NCBI RefSeq assembly: GCF_002906575.1
Contig: NZ_CP026309.1
Location: forward strand, 3,472,001 to 3,536,000
DNA length: 64,000 bases
Origin: Salinigranum rubrum
GTDB taxonomy: Archaea; Halobacteriota; Halobacteria; Halobacteriales; Haloferacaceae
Direction of reading: 5' to 3'
This document shows, piece after piece, positions 49,623 through 58,342 of the stretch. The notes beneath the pieces were generated by a model that saw only the letters and a list, made by a program, of their open reading frames with translations, was not told the origin of the DNA and ran no database searches. The translations under genes were made by a program, and so were the position numbers. Position 1 is the stretch's first letter; every line of letters starts with the position of its first letter.

Positions 49623-50726
49623 TCACGCCCGCGTGACGCTCGCGTCGGAGAGACACGCCCGGTACCGCGCGCCGGCATCGGTGTCGGCGGCGATGGCGGC
49701 GCGGACGCGGTCGGAGACCCACTCCTCGCCCAGGTACCGCTCGTACACCGGGAGGCGCTCGTGGAGGGGGACGCCCGCCTCGCTCGCGAGGTCCTCTAGC
49801 TCCCGGAGCGCGGGCCAGGCGTAGTCGGGGTTGATGTAGTCGTCCGTCACGGGCGAGACGCCGCCGAGGTCGTCGACGCCGCAGTCGAGGAGCGAGGAGG
49901 TGGGCGAGAGGTTCGGCGGCACCTGCACCGACACCTCCTCGGGGAGGGCGACGCGCGCCATGGCGACGACGCGGCGCATCGTCTCGACCGAGGGTCGTTC
50001 GAACGACGAGCGCTCGTTCGGGACGACGTTCTGGACGATGACCTCCTGGACGTGGCCGTACCGCTCGTGTAGGCCTCGAATCGCCAGGAGCGACTCGGCG
50101 CGGTCGCGCCACGTCTCGCCGATACCGACCAGGAGTCCGGTGGTGAACGGCACCCCCGTCTCGCCCGCGGCGCGGATGGTGTTGAGCCGCTGGCCGGGCG
50201 TCTTCTTCCGCCCGCCGGAGTGTGCGGCCACGTCGGCGGTCGTCTCCAGCATGACGCCCATCGAGGCGTTCACCTCTCTCAGACGAGCGAACTCCGACTC
50301 GACGAGGTCGCCGGGGTTCGAGTGCGGCAGCAAGCCCACGTCGAGTGCGAGTTCGCACATCTCGTACAGGTAGTCGACGATGGAGTCGTGGCCCCACTCG
50401 GCCAGTTGGTCGTGAATCGCCTCGTAGCGAGCGTCGGGCTTGTCGCCGAACGTGAACAGCGCCTCCGTACACCCGGCGTCGGCGCCCATCCGCAGCATCT
50501 CTTCGACCTCCTCGGGCGACATGAGCGACGCCTGCCCGGGGACGTCGTAGTACGTGCAGTACGTGCAGGTGTACCGGCAGGCGGTCGTCAGCGGGAGGAA
50601 GACGTTTCGCGAGAAGGTGAGCGCGGGGGCAGGGTCGACGTCGGCGGGCGTCGCCGCGAGCAGTCGGTCGACCGCCCGCTCGTCGACCGTGAGTTCGACG
50701 CCGTACTCCTCGGCCCCGGGGAACAT
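49623..50726 (-). CDS. cofG: FO synthase subunit 1, CofG (radical SAM)
   Basis: The 367-residue radical SAM protein has the cluster motif CRYTCTYCTYYD, the glycine-rich SAM segment GCTEALFTFGDKPDARYEAI, LLPHSNPGDLVESEFARLREVNASMGVMLE, GETGVPFTTGLLVGIGETWRDRAESLLAI, and HVQEVIVQNVVPN. It works with CofH to form FO. MFPGAEEYGVEL at ATG 50726 is the family start; the frame continues open upstream but carries no homology. A TATA-like GCTTTTGTCC (complement of 50747-50756) lies about 26 bases upstream. Confidence 0.93.
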   Translation of the reverse strand: MFPGAEEYGVELTVDERAVDRLLAATPADVDPAPALTFSRNVFLPLTTACRYTCTYCTYYDVPGQASLMSPEEVEEMLRMGADAGCTEALFTFGDKPDARYEAIHDQLAEWGHDSIVDYLYEMCELALDVGLLPHSNPGDLVESEFARLREVNASMGVMLETTADVAAHSGGRKKTPGQRLNTIRAAGETGVPFTTGLLVGIGETWRDRAESLLAIRGLHERYGHVQEVIVQNVVPNERSSFERPSVETMRRVVAMARVALPEEVSVQVPPNLSPTSSLLDCGVDDLGGVSPVTDDYINPDYAWPALRELEDLASEAGVPLHERLPVYERYLGEEWVSDRVRAAIAADTDAGARYRACLSDASVTRA

Positions 50727-50731
50727 ATCCG

Positions 50732-50748
50732 CCCTCCGACGCGGAGGG
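50732..50748 (-). promoter_or_regulatory. Perfect palindrome in the cofG promoter
   Basis: CCCTCCG-ACG-CGGAGGG is a 7-base inverted repeat with a 3-base centre, located between the TATA-like box (50747-50756) and the cofG start codon. It covers the likely transcription start, so it would be a good operator, or a hairpin at the 5' end of the message. Confidence 0.45.
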
Positions 50749-50869
50749 ACAAAAGCGAACGGGTCGACGCCGACCCGGCTCACCCGGCCGCACTGAAACG
50801 CCGCGGTCACGACGCCCTCGTCGGACGGGAAAACGGTGAAGAACGCACCGGTCGAACACCACTCACATC

Positions 50870-51774
50870 ATGTACTCTCACATCGTCGTCGCCGTCGACG
50901 GGAGCGAGCAAGCCACCCGGGCGGCCCGGTACGGGCTGGACGTCGCCCGACTGTTCGACGCACGCGTCGACGTCGTCCACGTCGTCGGCCGGAGGGCGCT
51001 TCGACTCACGTCGACGGCCGACGAGAAAGACCGGCTCCGGTCGCGCGGCGAGGCCGTCCTCGCGGAGGTCGAAAAGCTCGCATCGGAGCGTGGGCTCCCG
51101 GTCGGAACGGAACTCAGGGAGGGTTCGCCCGCGGCGCAGGTGGCTGAGTTCGCCGCCGAGCGCGACGCCGACCTGCTCGTCGTCGGCCGCCAGGGTGCGA
51201 CCGGACTCGGGAAGCGGCTCCTCGGGGTGTCACGGAGCACCTCCTCCACCGGACCGACGTCCCCGTGCTCGTCGTGCCGGACGAGCGGCCGCTGGACGTG
51301 ACCGAGTCCGACCGCGTCCTCGTCCCGACCGACGGGAGCGAGAACGCCGAGGCCGCCGCGCCCCACGGAGCGGCACTCGCCGGACGCGTCGACGCGGCGC
51401 TCTGCGTCCTGAACGTCGTCGACCTCCAGGCCGCGGGCGGGCTGTTCGCCGCCGGCGGGCTCGACGAGGAGTTCGTCGCTCGCCTCGAACGGCGGGGCCA
51501 CGAGGCGGTGGACCGACTCGCCGACGACGTTCGGGAGTCCGACCCCGACCTGACCGTCGAAACCGACGTCGTCACGACGACGGAGTTCGACGGGGTCGCC
51601 CGCGGTATCCACGGATACGTCGAGGAGGAGGGAGCCGACCTCGTCGTCATGGGGTCGCACGGACGGTCGAATCTCCGGCGACAACTCCTCGGGAGCGTCG
51701 CGTCGACGGTGCTGCGGACGGTGGACGTACCGGTGCTCGTGGTTCCGCGAGGCTCGACGGACGGCTCGGCGTAA
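50870..51774 (+). CDS. Tandem universal stress protein, frameshifted near 51225
   Basis: Two UspA domains are present but in different frames. The first runs MYSHIVVAVDGSEQATRAARYG to GRQGATGLGKRLLG. The second begins RVLVPTDGSENAEAAAPHG and ends VMGSHGRSNLRRQLLGSVASTVLRTVDVPVLVVP. One additional G in the G4 run at 51224-51227 makes the joint read GKRLLGGVTEHLLHRTDVP and gives a 301-residue protein. Both nucleotide-binding motifs are then complete. It is divergent from cofG and resembles the intact tandem Usp at 28252-29142. Confidence 0.8.
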
Positions 51775-51842
51775 TCGCCGAGTGGACTCCGGACTCGGCC
51801 GACCGCCCCAAGACATACCCCGTTCCGTTCGGTCGTCGTCGT

Positions 51843-52412
51843 ATGCGCCGCCGCCCGGCCCTCGCGGTCCTCGCAACCCTCGTCGGCGCCGTCTCCGGGT
51901 GCGGCACGCGCCTCCCGCCGTCCGCACGGACGCCCGCCTCGGTGGCGTCGACCGGCACACCGACGCTCGACGAATCACCACCCCTCGACGAACTCCCGTG
52001 TCCCCCCGCCGACGTGAACCCCGAGACGGCGGTCTGTCCGGGCGAGCGCGACGACGCGTCCGTCGCCGTCCGCACCAACCGCCCGAGCGTCGCTCTCGAC
52101 GACGCCGGGAGCGTTCGGTTCGTCCTCGAAAACGGGACCGGCGACGGACTCCGATTCAATCCGAACAACCCCGACGTCTACCGGTTCACGGGGGAGCGGT
52201 ACGAACTCGTCGAGCGACGGTCGAGCGGGAGCGGGGTCACGACGGTGCCGCCGAACGGAACGTACAGCTGGCGACTGGCCGACCTGCCGCAGTTCGACCG
52301 CCTCTCGGTGGGGACGTTCCTGTTCGCCGTCTCCGTCCCGACGGCGGGAACGATGGGCGCCGACTGGGTGACGTGTCTCGCGCCGTTTCGCCTCACCGAC
52401 GGGCGAGGGTGA
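51843..52412 (+). CDS. Putative lipoprotein, unknown function
   Basis: The 189-residue exported protein has a lipobox VSGC (Cys20) and a short Ser/Thr/Pro linker. A small beta-rich domain follows (RPSVALDDAGSVRFVLENGTGDGLRFNPNNPDVYRFTGERYELVERR...PPNGTYSWRLADLP). The pattern of an Ig-like intracellular-protease-inhibitor or BsuPI-type domain is suggested by FVLENGTG...NPNNPDVYRF...YSWRL, but this is not certain. Its 3' end overlaps cofC by 20 bases on the other strand. Confidence 0.65.
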   Translation: MRRRPALAVLATLVGAVSGCGTRLPPSARTPASVASTGTPTLDESPPLDELPCPPADVNPETAVCPGERDDASVAVRTNRPSVALDDAGSVRFVLENGTGDGLRFNPNNPDVYRFTGERYELVERRSSGSGVTTVPPNGTYSWRLADLPQFDRLSVGTFLFAVSVPTAGTMGADWVTCLAPFRLTDGRG

Positions 52413-53094
52413 CGCGGCCCTCCGCTTCGCTGACGGCGAGTTCGAACCGCGAGGTGAGCCAGTCTCGCGTCCGCTCGCCGCCGTGGACGAACGCCTCGAC
52501 GAGGTCCGCGGGTTCGTCGACGTCGGTCGCGAGTCTGAACGAGTCGACGGTCCCGACCGTCCCGACGTCGGCGGCGGCGCGCCGGTGGTCCAGGTAGGAC
52601 GCCCCGTGGAAGTCGGTCCGAAACGCGGGCGTGCGGACGACGAGGGCGTTCGTCCCGAGGCCGCGGCCGGGGACGAGGACGACGTCTTCGTCGGGCTGGA
52701 CGAGGCGAGAGAGCGCGTCGGGGGTGGCGAGCGCGAGGTCGGCCATCACCACGACGAGCGGCTCGCTCGCTCCGGCCTCGCCTTCGCCGACCGTCTCGGC
52801 GATGGCGTCGTCGACGACCGAGTCGAGCGAGCGGTCGTCGACCCGGACCGTCACCGACGGATCGGAGTCGGAACTGTCGACGTCGCGTTCGAGGGGAGGG
52901 TCGAGCGGGGCCGTCGAGACCACGTCCACCGCGACGTCGACGCCCGCCACCGCGTCCGCCCTCGACAGACCGACGACGGCGTCGAGCACGTCACGGAGCA
53001 TACACCGGGCGAATTCGCGGCGCTCGGTGGCGTCCAGAACGGGAGCGAGTCGGGTCTTCGGGTCCGTCGCGTCGAAGGGGACGACGACGCGCAT
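52393..53094 (-). CDS. cofC: 2-phospho-L-lactate guanylyltransferase CofC
   Basis: The 233-residue nucleotidyltransferase activates 2-phospholactate (or phosphoenolpyruvate) with GTP for F420 synthesis. Family features are MRVVVPFDATDPKTRLAPVLDATERREFARCML, VVVMADLALATPDALSRLV, VVLVPGRGLGTNALVVRTPAFRTDFHGASYLDH and FRLATDVDEPADLVEAFVHG. The central insertion (DVDSSDSDPSV) is acidic. The gene starts 5 bases after the membrane protein that follows cetZ1, so it belongs to that operon. Confidence 0.92.
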   Translation of the reverse strand: MRVVVPFDATDPKTRLAPVLDATERREFARCMLRDVLDAVVGLSRADAVAGVDVAVDVVSTAPLDPPLERDVDSSDSDPSVTVRVDDRSLDSVVDDAIAETVGEGEAGASEPLVVVMADLALATPDALSRLVQPDEDVVLVPGRGLGTNALVVRTPAFRTDFHGASYLDHRRAAADVGTVGTVDSFRLATDVDEPADLVEAFVHGGERTRDWLTSRFELAVSEAEGRVTLARR

Positions 53095-53099
53095 CCCGG

Positions 53100-53897
53100 T
53101 CACCCGAGCGGGTCGTGGCTGTCCTGCTGTGAGCGCCAGTAGAGGAACCCGCCCACGAGGAGGGCGACCACGACGAGGCCAGCGACCGCGTACAGCACGA
53201 GGGTGAACGTCTGCTGCGACTGCTGGGCGGACTGCGCCTGCGACTGTGCCTCGTTCGCGAGTTCGGTGGCCAGGTCGAAGTTCTCCGACTCGTAGGCGTT
53301 CACGGCCTGGTTGAACGTGTTCTCGGCCTCGCCGGGGTTCGCGCCGTTCTCTCGGGCGGCGTCGATGGCGGCCTGCGCGTCGTCGAGGGCGTTGCGCGCC
53401 CGGTCGCTCCCGGACGTGAAGTGGTGGGCCTCCCAGGTGTCGAGGGCGTTCGTGTTGCCGCCCTCGCGCGCCTGCGTCAGCGACGCGACCACGAACGTCT
53501 GTTCGGGGTCGTACGAGTACGATTCGACGGGCGGGGCCGTCCCGGTCACGCGGATACGGACCTCCGCGGTGCCGTCGGACGCCGAAATCTGCGAGGAGGA
53601 GAAGTTCTGTCCGTCGAACTCCTCGCGGCCGACCGTCGCGCCGGTCTGGTCGACGTAGGAGAGAGACCACGTGACGTCGCGGAGTTCGGTCTCGCCGCGC
53701 AGCTGCCACTGTTCGAGGGTCGGGTTCTGATACAACTCGGTCAGCGTAAACGTCGCTTCGACCTGCGAGCCGACGGCTGTTTCTTCCGGAACGTCCGCGT
53801 TCCCGACACTGAGCGCGGCGACGGGTGCGGCGACCGAAAGCAGGACCAACAGGGCGAGGAGGAGGCTAGAAAAGCGACTCCAGTTCGTCTTCGTCAT
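53100..53897 (-). CDS. Exported coiled-coil membrane protein in cetZ1 operon
   Basis: The 265-residue protein has an N-terminal signal peptide (SLLLALLVLLSVAAPVAALS), a beta-rich outer domain (about residues 30-150: VGSQVEATFTLTELYQNPTLEQWQL, then EVRIRVTGTAP) and a helical, Gln/Ala-rich segment (ARNALDDAQAAIDAARENG...ATELANEAQSQAQSAQQSQQ). One C-terminal transmembrane helix and a short inside tail follow. The start overlaps the cetZ1 3' end by 32 bases. I recognise no named family. Its position suggests it could connect CetZ1 to the envelope (inference). Confidence 0.72.
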   Translation of the reverse strand: MTKTNWSRFSSLLLALLVLLSVAAPVAALSVGNADVPEETAVGSQVEATFTLTELYQNPTLEQWQLRGETELRDVTWSLSYVDQTGATVGREEFDGQNFSSSQISASDGTAEVRIRVTGTAPPVESYSYDPEQTFVVASLTQAREGGNTNALDTWEAHHFTSGSDRARNALDDAQAAIDAARENGANPGEAENTFNQAVNAYESENFDLATELANEAQSQAQSAQQSQQTFTLVLYAVAGLVVVALLVGGFLYWRSQQDSHDPLG

Positions 53898-55053
53898 CGT
53901 TCACCAGACCTTCGAGCTTCGCATCACTCTCCTCTCGGATTTCGGCAAGATTGTCTTGTGCTTCGATGGCGACCTGCTGAAGCTCCTTGATACGGGGGAC
54001 GTTCGTCACGCCCGAGAGGAGGATGACGGCCGCGACCTGCCGCGAGTTGCTGATGGGGTAGTCGCCGCCGCGGACCTCCATCGAGCCGGTCTGCTCCTCG
54101 ATCCACTTCCGCCCGCGCTCGATACCTTTCCGGTTGAGGTGTTCCGGCGGCCCCGCCAGCACCAGGAGTGCCCGCTCGGAGCCTTCGATTTCACAGGGGA
54201 GGGTGAGCCGACCGAGCGCCGCCTTTCGAACGAGAGACGTGATTCGGTTGGTGGTGTGTGCGCTGTCGAGGCCGTCGTCACCGTCGTCGCCGCTGCCGGT
54301 GAGCCGCGAGAGGAGCCCGCCCGACTTCCCCTTCGGCTCGACCTCCTCGGAGGCGTACCCGACGGTGGAGACCCCGCCGCCGGCGAGCGTGTTGATGATC
54401 TCCGAGGAGTCGACGACGCTCTCGGCGACCTCCTGGCCGGCTTCGACCTCACCGGCGCCGAACAGGACGCCGAAGCGCGTGACTATCTCCCGGTTGATCT
54501 GGTCGTAGCCGCCCTGCACGGACTCGCCGGTCTTGCGCCAGGCGTCGTTGTCGAAGACGAGGAGGTTGTCCACTTCCCGGACGAACGTCTGGAACGACCG
54601 CGCGGCGTTGAGGGTGTAGATGCCGCCCTCGTCGCTGCCGGGGAGGATTCCCAGCCCGTAGACGGGCTCCGTGTAGATGCGCTTGAGGTGCTTCGCCAGC
54701 ACGGGCGCGCCGCCGGACCCGGTCCCCCCACCGAGGCCGGCGACGACGAGGAAGGCGTCGACCTCGTGGACGGGGATCGAGTCGATGGCACCCTGTACCT
54801 CGTCGACGTCCTCCTCGGCGATCTCGGCACCGAGTTCGTTGTCCGCGCCGACGCCGTGTCCCTTCACCCTGGACTGGCCGATGAGGACGCGCTGGTCCTG
54901 CGGGATGTTCTCGAGGCCGAGGAGGTCCGCCTTCGCCGTGTTCACCGCCACCGCGGCGCGGACGATGTTCGAGTCGTTCTTCCGGTCGTACTCGAGGAAC
55001 TTGTCGACGACTTTGCCACCCGCCTGGCCGAAACCGATCATCGCGAGTTTCAT
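53866..55053 (-). CDS. cetZ1: Tubulin-like GTPase CetZ1
   Basis: The 395-residue protein of the CetZ branch of the tubulin/FtsZ superfamily has the N-terminal nucleotide loop MKLAMIGFGQAGGKVVDKFLEYD, the tubulin signature GLGGGTGSGGAP (residues 106-117), FDNDAWRKTGESVQGGYDQIN, TTNRITSLVRKAALGRLTLPCEIEG and the C-terminal tail NDDEDELESLF. It closely resembles Haloferax volcanii CetZ1, which controls rod development and motility. An acidic insert (GSGDDGDDGLD) is typical. A 5' leader of about 25 bases is likely, with GAGGGA before the ATG. It leads the operon cetZ1-membrane protein-cofC. Confidence 0.95.
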   Translation of the reverse strand: MKLAMIGFGQAGGKVVDKFLEYDRKNDSNIVRAAVAVNTAKADLLGLENIPQDQRVLIGQSRVKGHGVGADNELGAEIAEEDVDEVQGAIDSIPVHEVDAFLVVAGLGGGTGSGGAPVLAKHLKRIYTEPVYGLGILPGSDEGGIYTLNAARSFQTFVREVDNLLVFDNDAWRKTGESVQGGYDQINREIVTRFGVLFGAGEVEAGQEVAESVVDSSEIINTLAGGGVSTVGYASEEVEPKGKSGGLLSRLTGSGDDGDDGLDSAHTTNRITSLVRKAALGRLTLPCEIEGSERALLVLAGPPEHLNRKGIERGRKWIEEQTGSMEVRGGDYPISNSRQVAAVILLSGVTNVPRIKELQQVAIEAQDNLAEIREESDAKLEGLVNDDEDELESLF

Positions 55054-55307: not shown

Positions 55308-56192
55308 CTACCCCGCCAGGTACGCTTCGAGACTCGTGAGGTCCGACGCGCTCAGCCCGAACGCGCCGATCGCGTTGTCGTCGGTCGTGTTGTCGAACTT
55401 GAGCGAGCGGTACTGGTCGGCACCCATCGGCGCGCCGGGGACCTTCCCCAGGATGCTGAGGCCGACGCCCGCCAGTCCCATGGGGACGGGGACGACGGTC
55501 ACCGAACGACCGGCCGCGCCGTGGGCGAGTTTCGCCACCTCCGCGAGCGTCAGTTTGTCCGGCCCGCCGACTTCGTAGGTCTGCCCGACGTGTTCGTCCC
55601 CCTCGCAGGCGTCGGCGAGCATGGGGGCCAGATCACCGACCCAGATGGGCTGAAAGCGCGTCTTGCCCCCGCCGGGCAGCGGCGTCAGATAGGGCGGAGC
55701 GAGTTTCTTCGTGAAGGGGACGAACTCACCGCCGTCACCGAACACGACCGAGGGGCGGAAGACGACCCAGTCGAGCGAGGAGTTCTTCACGATTTCCTCG
55801 GCTTTGCCCTTCGCGCGGATGTACGCCGTTTCCCCCTGGGGGTCGGCCCCGAGGGCGCTCATCTGCACTAACCGCGAAACGCCGTGTTCCTCGCAGGCGC
55901 GGACGACGTTCTCGGTCCCCTGTCGGTGGACCGTGTCGTGCATCTCGTCGCCGCCGCTGGGTTTGAACAGCGGCGAGAGCGCGACGAGGTTGACGACGAC
56001 GTCCATCCCCTCGAACGCCTCCTGAATCGAATCGTACGCGGTGACGTTCCCCATCGCCTTCGACACGCCCCTCGGGAGTTCGTCGTTGCCAGGGCTCCGC
56101 GAGAGCGCCGTGACGCTGTGTCCTCGCTCCTTGAGTTCACGACACAGGTGGCTGCCGATGAAGCCGCTTCCGCCGGCGACAAGGACTTTCAT
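55308..56192 (-). CDS. NAD(P)-binding epimerase-like protein (atypical SDR, NDUFA9-like)
   Basis: The 294-residue Rossmann-fold protein has MKVLVAGGSGFIGSHLCRELKERGH, VVNLVALSPLFKPSGGDEMHDTVH, SRLVQMSALGADPQGETAYIRAKGKAEEIV (with the Y-x3-K pair) and VVFRPSVVFGDGG. It resembles complex-I NDUFA9-like atypical SDRs. The substrate is unknown; reductase or isomerase roles are possible. The gene is conserved near cetZ1 in related genomes as far as I recall (not checked). ATG 56192 is used; the in-frame upstream extension lacks homology. Confidence 0.83.
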   Translation of the reverse strand: MKVLVAGGSGFIGSHLCRELKERGHSVTALSRSPGNDELPRGVSKAMGNVTAYDSIQEAFEGMDVVVNLVALSPLFKPSGGDEMHDTVHRQGTENVVRACEEHGVSRLVQMSALGADPQGETAYIRAKGKAEEIVKNSSLDWVVFRPSVVFGDGGEFVPFTKKLAPPYLTPLPGGGKTRFQPIWVGDLAPMLADACEGDEHVGQTYEVGGPDKLTLAEVAKLAHGAAGRSVTVVPVPMGLAGVGLSILGKVPGAPMGADQYRSLKFDNTTDDNAIGAFGLSASDLTSLEAYLAG

Positions 56193-56349
56193 ACAGTCTC
56201 CTGCGGCGGTACCGACGTAAAGCTGTCGCGAGAGGACCACTTCCGTGTCCCGGTTTTGCGGCTTTCGGAGGGGTCTTGGACGTCACTGGAGAGAGAGCCG
56301 TCCGCGCCGCACCGACAGGGTTATTCGTCGCCCCGGCGCGCCTCACGCC

Positions 56350-57394: not shown

Positions 57395-58342
57395 TCAGTT
57401 CGAGGCCGCGTCGAACGGGTTCGTCCCCGCACCCACCTCGTCGACGGTCGACACGCCGTCGCCGTCCCAGTCGGTTCGCAGGTACTCGTTCGCGGCGTCG
57501 CGCGGGTCCAGTCCGCCGAGGAGTTCGTCCTCGTCCGCGAGGCCGTCGCCGTCTGAGTCCGCCCGCTCGGGGTTCGTTCCGACGAGCGTCTCGTATGCGT
57601 CGTCGAGGCCGTCGCCGTCGCCGTCACTCACAGCGGGCACGTCGCTCCGGTCGTCCGGGTCGGTTCCCGCGTCGACCTCGACGCCGTCCGAGACGCCGTC
57701 GCCGTCGGTGTCGAAGGCGAGCGGGTCGCTGGTGTAGAAGCCGAAGACTTCGTCGCCGTCGGCGAGGCCGTCACCGTCGGTGTCGGGGTCCGCGGGGTCG
57801 AGTTCGGGGCTCGAAGACACCTCGCTGTCGTCCTCAAGTCCGTCGCCGTCGGTGTCGGTCTGGTAGTGCCCGCCGTCGGAGGCGTCGAGCGCGTCGGTCC
57901 GACCCTGTTCGACGCGGTCGTTCGAGCCGTCGCCGTCCGTGTCGGGGTCGAACGGGTCGGTACCGAGGGCGCGTTCGTCCTCGTCCGAGAGACCGTCTCC
58001 GTCGCTGTCGCGGTCCAGGAAGTCCGGCACGCCGTCGCCGTCCGTGTCACGCGCGCCCTCGTCGGCGTCGGAGAGGCCGTCGCCGTCGCTGTCGGCGTCC
58101 CGGAAGTGCTCGACGCCGTCACCGTCGGGGTCGGCAACGGTCCGCTCGGCGTGGTAGGTTTCGAGCGCCGACGGGATGCCGTCGCCGTCGTGGTCGACGA
58201 CTTCGGTGCTCGGGCCGTCGTTCGCGACGCTCGTGAGGTTGAGGTCGGCCGTCGACCCGGTGAGCGCGACAGCACCGACCGATGCCGCCGATGCGACGAC
58301 GGTGACGACGAGGGCGACAGCGACTGCCCGCCGAGCGCTCAC
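57395..58342 (-). CDS. Exported calcium-binding-repeat protein (thrombospondin type 3-like)
   Basis: The 315-residue protein has an N-terminal signal ([22 protein letters not shown]). It is then almost entirely Asp/Gly-rich repeats of the form [10 protein letters not shown] and [14 protein letters not shown], at least ten DxDxDG-type loops. Such loops bind Ca2+ in thrombospondin type 3 repeats and dockerin-like modules. It is secreted or surface-bound and probably folds around Ca2+ in brine. No catalytic domain is attached. Confidence 0.82.

Follow-up and report, generated by a model that had tools for sequence, protein, structure and literature searches.

The locus considered here raises the question of why the gene of a predicted exported membrane protein should lie directly behind that of a tubulin-like cytoskeletal protein. 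It is found in a stretch of 64,000 nucleotides of the Salinigranum rubrum genome (contig NZ_CP026309.1, positions 3,472,001 to 3,536,000), the whole of which we refer to as the window, and M is our working name for the gene between cetZ1 and cofC and for its product. The gene pair, its co-occurrence across genomes, the conserved architecture of M and its cytosolic tail together make an M-CetZ partnership appear well supported, and we propose with considerable confidence that M is a dedicated membrane partner of CetZ. That it acts as a tether or linker between CetZ and the envelope, by the mechanism put forward below, is a more specific proposal on which our judgment is evenly balanced. The features at issue are as follows.

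53866-55053, minus strand: cetZ1, tubulin-like CetZ1, 395 amino acids, C-terminal tail DEDELESLF (open reading frame, Pfam and PDB match)
53866-53897, minus strand: overlap of the 3' end of cetZ1 with the 5' end of M, 32 nucleotides
53100-53897, minus strand: M, predicted single-pass exported envelope protein, 265 amino acids, candidate CetZ partner
52393-53094, minus strand: cofC, 2-phospho-L-lactate guanylyltransferase of F420 synthesis, 233 amino acids (TIGR03552)

Sequence comparison places the tubulin-like protein in the CetZ1 rather than the CetZ2 subfamily, because its top PDB match is 4b46 at 760.6 bits versus 313.3 bits for 4b45, and it matches the Pfam model CetZ_C with 275 bits; 4B46 is CetZ1 and 4B45 is CetZ2 of Haloferax volcanii (PMC9856176; papers are cited by PMC number throughout, in each case for excerpts of their text). 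The cofC product passes the TIGR03552 equivalog with 151.7 bits against a cut-off of 105. Within the overlap, the codons of the acidic CetZ1 tail DEDELESLF encode, in another frame, the basic n-region MTKTNWSRF of the M signal peptide, and exactly the same 32 nucleotides are shared in 41 of the 50 haloarchaeal M loci examined. M is under purifying selection in Haloferax, with a ratio of non-synonymous to synonymous substitution rates (dN/dS) of 0.23-0.35 for pairs with dS >0.19 (the M pairs are in register; out-of-register CetZ1 pairs of unequal length, L103 or L106 versus others, were discarded). The conservation of the 32 nucleotides and the selection on M thus argue against an overlap arisen by chance. 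Five bases (53095-53099) separate the M stop codon from cofC, and cetZ1 and M form one apparent operon.

The pairing of M with CetZ extends far beyond the haloarchaea, as seen in a phylum-wide draw of 294 genomes searched first with a profile of M termed A1 and then with a broader one, A5 (below, f-numbers are family labels, g-numbers genus labels, G genomes and L loci). Profile A1 gave M matches in 24 genomes outside Halobacteria, and at 17 of 20 M loci picked by M sequence alone CetZ directly precedes M on the same strand. The remaining three are one at a contig end (L095), one unlinked f14 relative (L096), which is a true M relative (E 4e-49 with A5), and one match confined to the helices of a 906-amino-acid open reading frame (L100). 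When 20 CetZ loci were drawn by family and not by M, one (L186) ended too soon to judge and M was next in 15 of the remaining 19, the misses being three f14 loci and, in G288, one of two CetZ copies, the other of which does have M behind it. A test by whole-genome coordinates took 117 M rows outside Halobacteria among the best matches listed, with second matches in the same open reading frame dropped and a wide distance rule because some CetZ rows mark only the N-terminal domain. A CetZ row stands in the same genome for 82 of these, with adjacency in 75; outside f14, M is immediately downstream of CetZ in all 74 of 74 cases among the matches listed.

Presence and absence follow the same pattern. 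With cuts of E<=1e-20 for M (A5), which exclude weak matches in f12, f18, f32 and f33 (E 1e-5 to 1e-11), and E<=1e-50 for CetZ, M is found in 154 of the 294 genomes and CetZ in 202, with both in 148, M only in six, CetZ only in 54 and neither in 86 (Fisher p 4e-29, without correction for kinship). The CetZ-only genomes comprise 23 Halobacteria, 30 f14 members and G388, where CetZ lies at a contig end, and the M-only genomes are five of f17 and G255, where M lies at a contig end. If Halobacteria and f14 are set aside, M accompanies CetZ in 101 of 102 CetZ-positive genomes at this cut, with the family labels read off by hand. M is therefore specifically paired with the gene of a polymer-forming protein, the exceptions being f14 and f17, and these comparisons indicate that the M-CetZ link is far older than is visible from the window. 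Some genomes carry CetZ genes in tandem or in several copies, as seen at L198 (G274) and L199 (G360) and in G344, family f15; at the two-CetZ loci examined (L198, L199) M follows just one copy.

The product of M is itself built like a linker, as follows.

53814-53897, minus strand: M residues 1-28, predicted Sec-type signal peptide, A28 preceding the expected cleavage point
53418-53810, minus strand: M residues 30-160, predicted immunoglobulin-like (Ig-like) beta-sandwich ectodomain (AlphaFold2 strands)
53205-53414, minus strand: M residues 162-231, helical stalk of helices 162-183 and 189-203 and the start of helix 207-258 (AlphaFold2)
53142-53201, minus strand: M residues 233-252, predicted transmembrane part of helix 207-258 (AlphaFold2 and sequence)
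53103-53141, minus strand: M residues 253-265, predicted cytosolic tail YWRSQQDSHDPLG

The AlphaFold2 model, computed with the window protein plus 36 relatives, has a mean predicted local distance difference test score (pLDDT) of 87.7 and a predicted template modelling score (pTM) of 0.71, with low pLDDT at residues 1-9 and 23-27. A28 is invariant in alignment A6 (37 rows) and at least 90% conserved in A1 (43 rows). Helix 207-258 is modelled as a single helix of 52 residues, so that the stalk would run continuously through the membrane, and the predicted membrane segment appears conserved in the relatives. From the signal peptide and the C-terminal membrane helix we predict a topology with the head outside and the 13-residue tail inside. 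The first-pass annotation of this locus, drawn from the letters and their translations, had described the 32-base overlap, the 5-base gap before cofC and a protein with a signal peptide, a beta-rich outer domain and a C-terminal membrane helix; the open reading frame coordinates agree on the first two and the AlphaFold2 model on the third.

In Pfam and NCBIfam, M has no match above cut-off, and hence none to a known tether family. Among structures, the best match to the beta domain is the adhesin 4igb_C (Z 9.0, root mean square deviation (rmsd) 3.6 over 127 residues), and the Gram-positive Ig-like pilins and adhesins 4igb, 9lj6 and 3kpt resemble residues 25-160 with Z 8.8-9.0 and rmsd 3.4-3.7 over 120-127 residues at 6-12% identity. 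Since the Ig-like arrangement is common, we claim neither kinship nor shared function with these proteins. Foldseek gave a best E of 1.6e-6, to Spo0M, with a low query-based score (TMq 0.28), and a search of PDB sequences matched only helical, fusion or designed chains across the helical part. Relatives of M range from 265 to about 457 amino acids, and those of Halobacteria share about 20% identity overall with those of other families. In Salinarchaeum and a relative (L118, L048) M has 331-336 residues, and in that of L048 a Ser/Gly/Asp-rich insert separates the stalk from the membrane helix.

The short tail carries a motif of its own. M proteins often end in [WYFH]-[DE]-x-L-(G/R/K), a motif that the window tail fits with HDPLG; of 145 distinct sequences, 86 carry [WYFH][DE]xL either as the very last residues or followed by a single one. 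Despite the low overall identity between Halobacteria and the other families, the ends stay similar: many haloarchaea have YDKLG or YDKLR, f13, f20 and f22 have WDELG, and f21 has WDRLG; other ends are PPLG in f30 and SKLR or NKLQ in some Halobacteria. The unlinked copy L071 of genome G081 (end PSEHR) is without the aromatic-acidic pair, as are five f17 copies in genomes below the CetZ cut, and f14 copies that are not linked to the CetZ of their genome retain WDEL or FDEL (ends WDELK and FDELK). The pattern of loss and retention in these copies suggests that the tail serves CetZ. Within the haloarchaea, the last five columns are the best conserved part of M (majority 0.79, compared with 0.61 for the beta domain and 0.56 for the helices); in the deep alignment A3, which holds many f15 rows that end differently, the tail at 0.41 is not higher than the other two parts at 0.42 and 0.45. 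CetZ has a C-terminal LxPLF-like end in most families, and because it is present both with and without M, this end is not specific to M.

The first-pass annotation had seen in M a candidate anchor or outside sensor of CetZ1. Based on these data, we put forward a hypothetical mechanism in which M joins CetZ to the cell surface. M would be exported by way of a cleaved signal peptide and held by its one C-terminal membrane helix, as both are predicted, placing the Ig-like head on its helical stalk at the outer face and the short motif tail in the cytoplasm. The tail would dock on CetZ polymers and so tether them to the membrane, and the head would couple CetZ to the surface layer (S-layer) or to another layer of the envelope; the longer stalks of other lineages would suit envelopes of different depth. 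Anchoring, direct binding and the direction of coupling are what we infer from a linker-like shape, namely a single pass with the mass outside and a short conserved peptide inside. A tether needs a segment that is integral to the membrane or binds to it, and the predicted membrane helix within 207-258 would provide this. The proposal is in keeping with the position of CetZ1 at the cell periphery (PMC7613921) and with the enrichment of CetZ in vesicles, where it is termed envelope-associated (PMC10927574), and we consider M to be the best candidate yet for coupling the CetZ cytoskeleton to the cell surface.

Membrane tethers are a familiar companion of tubulin-family polymers; FtsA, ZipA and EzrA hold FtsZ in this way. 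SepF, which is present in archaea, is another such tether of FtsZ (PMC8178401). What M has in common with them is a predicted place in the membrane, a tubulin-family polymer as its partner and a proposed role in holding that polymer there; it differs in that its folded mass is outside with 13 residues inside and that its partner is CetZ. Comparison of M with SepF and the other tethers gave no sequence relation above cut-off, although one A5 member matches the EzrA model (E 2.4e-6) by way of its long helices. The ArlF/ArlG stator of the archaellum likewise consists of envelope proteins with a beta-sandwich, which anchor their machine in the S-layer (PMC7613921). M is likewise predicted to have a beta-sandwich and a place in the envelope; in contrast to ArlF and ArlG, its gene lies behind CetZ rather than with archaellum genes and it combines a signal peptide with a C-terminal membrane helix, and no sequence relation between M and ArlF/ArlG was found.

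Within Halobacteria the pairing is also close where M exists, but M is not universal. In a draw of 194 genomes (M profile A1 at E <1e-60, CetZ at E<=1e-120), M was found in 102 genomes at 103 places and CetZ in 187, and none of the seven genomes without CetZ at the cut-off carries M. Of these places 54 were examined, made up of 50 loci, three more of genus g34 and the unlinked second copy (L071) on another contig of G081, which is the sole exception; at the other 53, M comes straight after a CetZ gene. Four of these 53 belong to g34, whose CetZ is 60-62% identical to that of the window in the three listed. The M copies of this genus (L045, L072-L074) end in SRLR or SRLK, unlike the rest of the family, and the CetZ of L045 is without the DELEPLF tail. 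The first-pass annotation had called M a constant neighbour of cetZ1 and had named conservation of the pair as a check: the pair proves far wider than the haloarchaea, and constancy fails within them, M being present in only 102 of the 187 CetZ-positive haloarchaeal genomes. Among 80 named CetZ1 loci, M is next in 39, including 7/7 Haloferax, 3/3 Halobacterium, Haladaptatus, Halapricum, Halorhabdus (L172) and a Haloquadratum metagenome-assembled genome, and missing in 41. On a CetZ tree made by a quick method, with several forks open and second CetZ copies scored as rows without M, the label "M next" must switch at least 6 times among the Halobacteria and at least 11 times over all 123 rows. 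A divergent M hidden in Halorubrum or Natrialbaceae was considered and rejected, as no gene fits between cetZ1 and cofC at the M-less loci, where the gap is 14-81 nucleotides (12 f1 loci), 106-312 (seven f4 loci) or 52 (one f9 locus). No full-length match to profile A1 or A5 was found in M-less haloarchaeal genomes; weak matches there are to open reading frames of 600-1021 amino acids (E 1e-3 to 1e-2; E 5e-5 in G005), and those at L076 and L077 gave nothing at E 1e-3 in the locus search.

Several observations weigh against a simple form of our proposal. Natrialbaceae, Halorubrum and its allies keep a well-conserved CetZ1 without M, which is missing beside cetZ1 in 22/22 named Halorubrum loci, in Halolamina, Halonotius, Halovivax, Natronorubrum and others, and no CetZ1 columns were found altered in both M-less groups. 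CetZ is also prominent in the vesicles of Halorubrum lacusprofundi, a member of that same genus (PMC10927574). Because Halorubrum, Halolamina, Halonotius, Natrialbaceae and others retain CetZ1 in this way, M is not the only route of CetZ to the envelope, and CetZ1 of several clades can do without it. Beyond this class, 30 CetZ-positive f14 genomes are without M at E<=1e-20, and where both coordinates are listed M is adjacent to CetZ in only 1/8 f14 cases and unlinked in 7/8, and five f17 genomes have M without a CetZ match at E<=1e-50. The M proteins of f15, a CetZ-positive family, end off motif in KRGIY or KRGVY. Partial distance correlations of 0.36 for M with CetZ and 0.40 for M with CofC are weak and not specific. 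The f14 relatives of M away from CetZ (L234-L238, L248) have about 412-457 amino acids with a longer helical region, and one f14 genome, G403 (L239), has an intact CetZ-M pair. The tubulin-family matches of f17 (L229-L233) look FtsZ-like. No alternative partner shared by M in f17 and by unlinked M in f14 was found, the neighbours varying between loci.

The same genomic evidence must be weighed for other roles of M, and the one that fares best is that M is a cargo of CetZ, whose polymers would place M and an envelope, S-layer or motility process at the poles or midcell, M having no anchoring role. The M-CetZ association fits this equally well, the loss of M with retention of CetZ1 suits a dispensable client better than an anchor, and CetZ1 influences the placing of ArlD and CheW (PMC11621097). 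Yet gene order and coupling do not separate cargo from anchor, and overall we consider this role rather doubtful. Less likely still is that M is a sensor, in which the Ig-like head would read envelope conditions while the tail tunes CetZ assembly: a head predicted to be exported, joined to a conserved end in the cytosol, would suit such a device and CetZ1 does act in the transition from disc to rod (PMC7613921), but the tail, of 13 residues, has no signalling domain. That M merely rides along in a conserved operon, or belongs with F420 synthesis or with the epimerase gene upstream of cetZ1 (nolA), is highly improbable, since for all that M sits between cetZ1 and cofC in 50 haloarchaeal loci and correlates with CofC as noted above, the M-CetZ pairing is too wide and too strict, the cofC profile matched just 1/20 M loci outside Halobacteria (L097) where M follows CetZ in 74/74 cases outside f14, cofC remains beside cetZ1 where M is missing (directly after it at 20/20 loci of one set and found at 40/41 named loci, the exception being L149), and CofC is a cytosolic enzyme whereas M is an envelope protein. 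The link of M with cofC is probably incidental, as the pair outside Halobacteria is mostly without cofC, and an F420 or epimerase function for M was rejected: at loci where cofC and nolA are for the most part not seen, M still stands behind CetZ, so that neither of the two is its partner.

Returning to M as the membrane partner of CetZ, a bolder form of the proposal, which we offer tentatively and regard as possible rather than probable, is that the pair represents an ancient transmembrane linkage of cytoskeleton and envelope that was present in the phylum ancestor, rewired in f14 and dropped by some haloarchaea. On the inner side, CetZ polymers would hold the [WY]DxL(G/R/K) tails while Ig-like heads grip the S-layer by way of lineage-specific stalks, and a tubulin-like skeleton would thus shape the cell by pulling on or patterning a protein coat. 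Integrins and LINC complexes, which couple animal cytoskeletons across membranes, would offer a parallel.

The remaining features of the neighbourhood are these.

55308-56240, minus strand: NAD-dependent epimerase-like gene next to cetZ1 on its upstream side, termed nolA by Brown and Duggin (2023)
49626-50810, minus strand: CofG-like radical SAM gene

A nolA-like match lies upstream of cetZ1 in most loci examined, and the window has the surroundings typical of the CetZ1 subfamily, with nolA upstream and cofC near. Between cofC and the CofG-like gene the window holds a Usp-family gene and further plus-strand open reading frames (50870-52411, plus strand); as the CofG-like frame directly follows cofC in several M-less relatives, the F420 cluster looks interrupted here. 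Near the cetZ1 cluster, an open reading frame at 57398-58342 (minus strand), whose product starts with a signal-like segment and carries numerous bacterial TSP3 repeats (Pfam PF18884), likely encodes a calcium-binding surface protein.

Brown and Duggin (2023) described a region of nolA, cetZ1, cofC and cofG/H, with purine genes as well, in 20 species, and 27 cetZ regions of non-Halobacteria that fell outside the Halobacteria CetZ branch, reporting few similarities among the cetZ regions of three of the four orders concerned (PMC9856176). In the excerpts of that text, figures and supplement apart, M is not discussed; a grey arCOG in its Figure 5 may be M. In H. volcanii HVO_2204 is cetZ1 and HVO_2202 is cofC (PMC8305020, PMC10927574), and by gene order HVO_2203 should be M. 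The literature searched, with bioRxiv preprints, most subscription papers, figures and supplements outside its scope, contained no account of M or HVO_2203, in line with the first-pass view that the protein had not been described, and the passages found name no envelope tether of CetZ. The marker mcrA was found in tested genomes of f13, f17, f20, f23, f27, f28, f29, f30 and f34 and in one of two tested f15 genomes, and was not found in those tested of f14, f16, f21, f22, f24, f31 and f35.

M bears on two questions, the attachment of CetZ to the envelope and the role of CetZ beyond the haloarchaea. It offers a phylum-wide partner gene with a single target, HVO_2203 by gene order, for deletion, tail truncation and co-localisation, for which the species with CetZ1 and no M are natural controls. 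The literature searched gave no role for CetZ in mcrA-positive archaea, and for the CetZ of these organisms M would provide a first handle.

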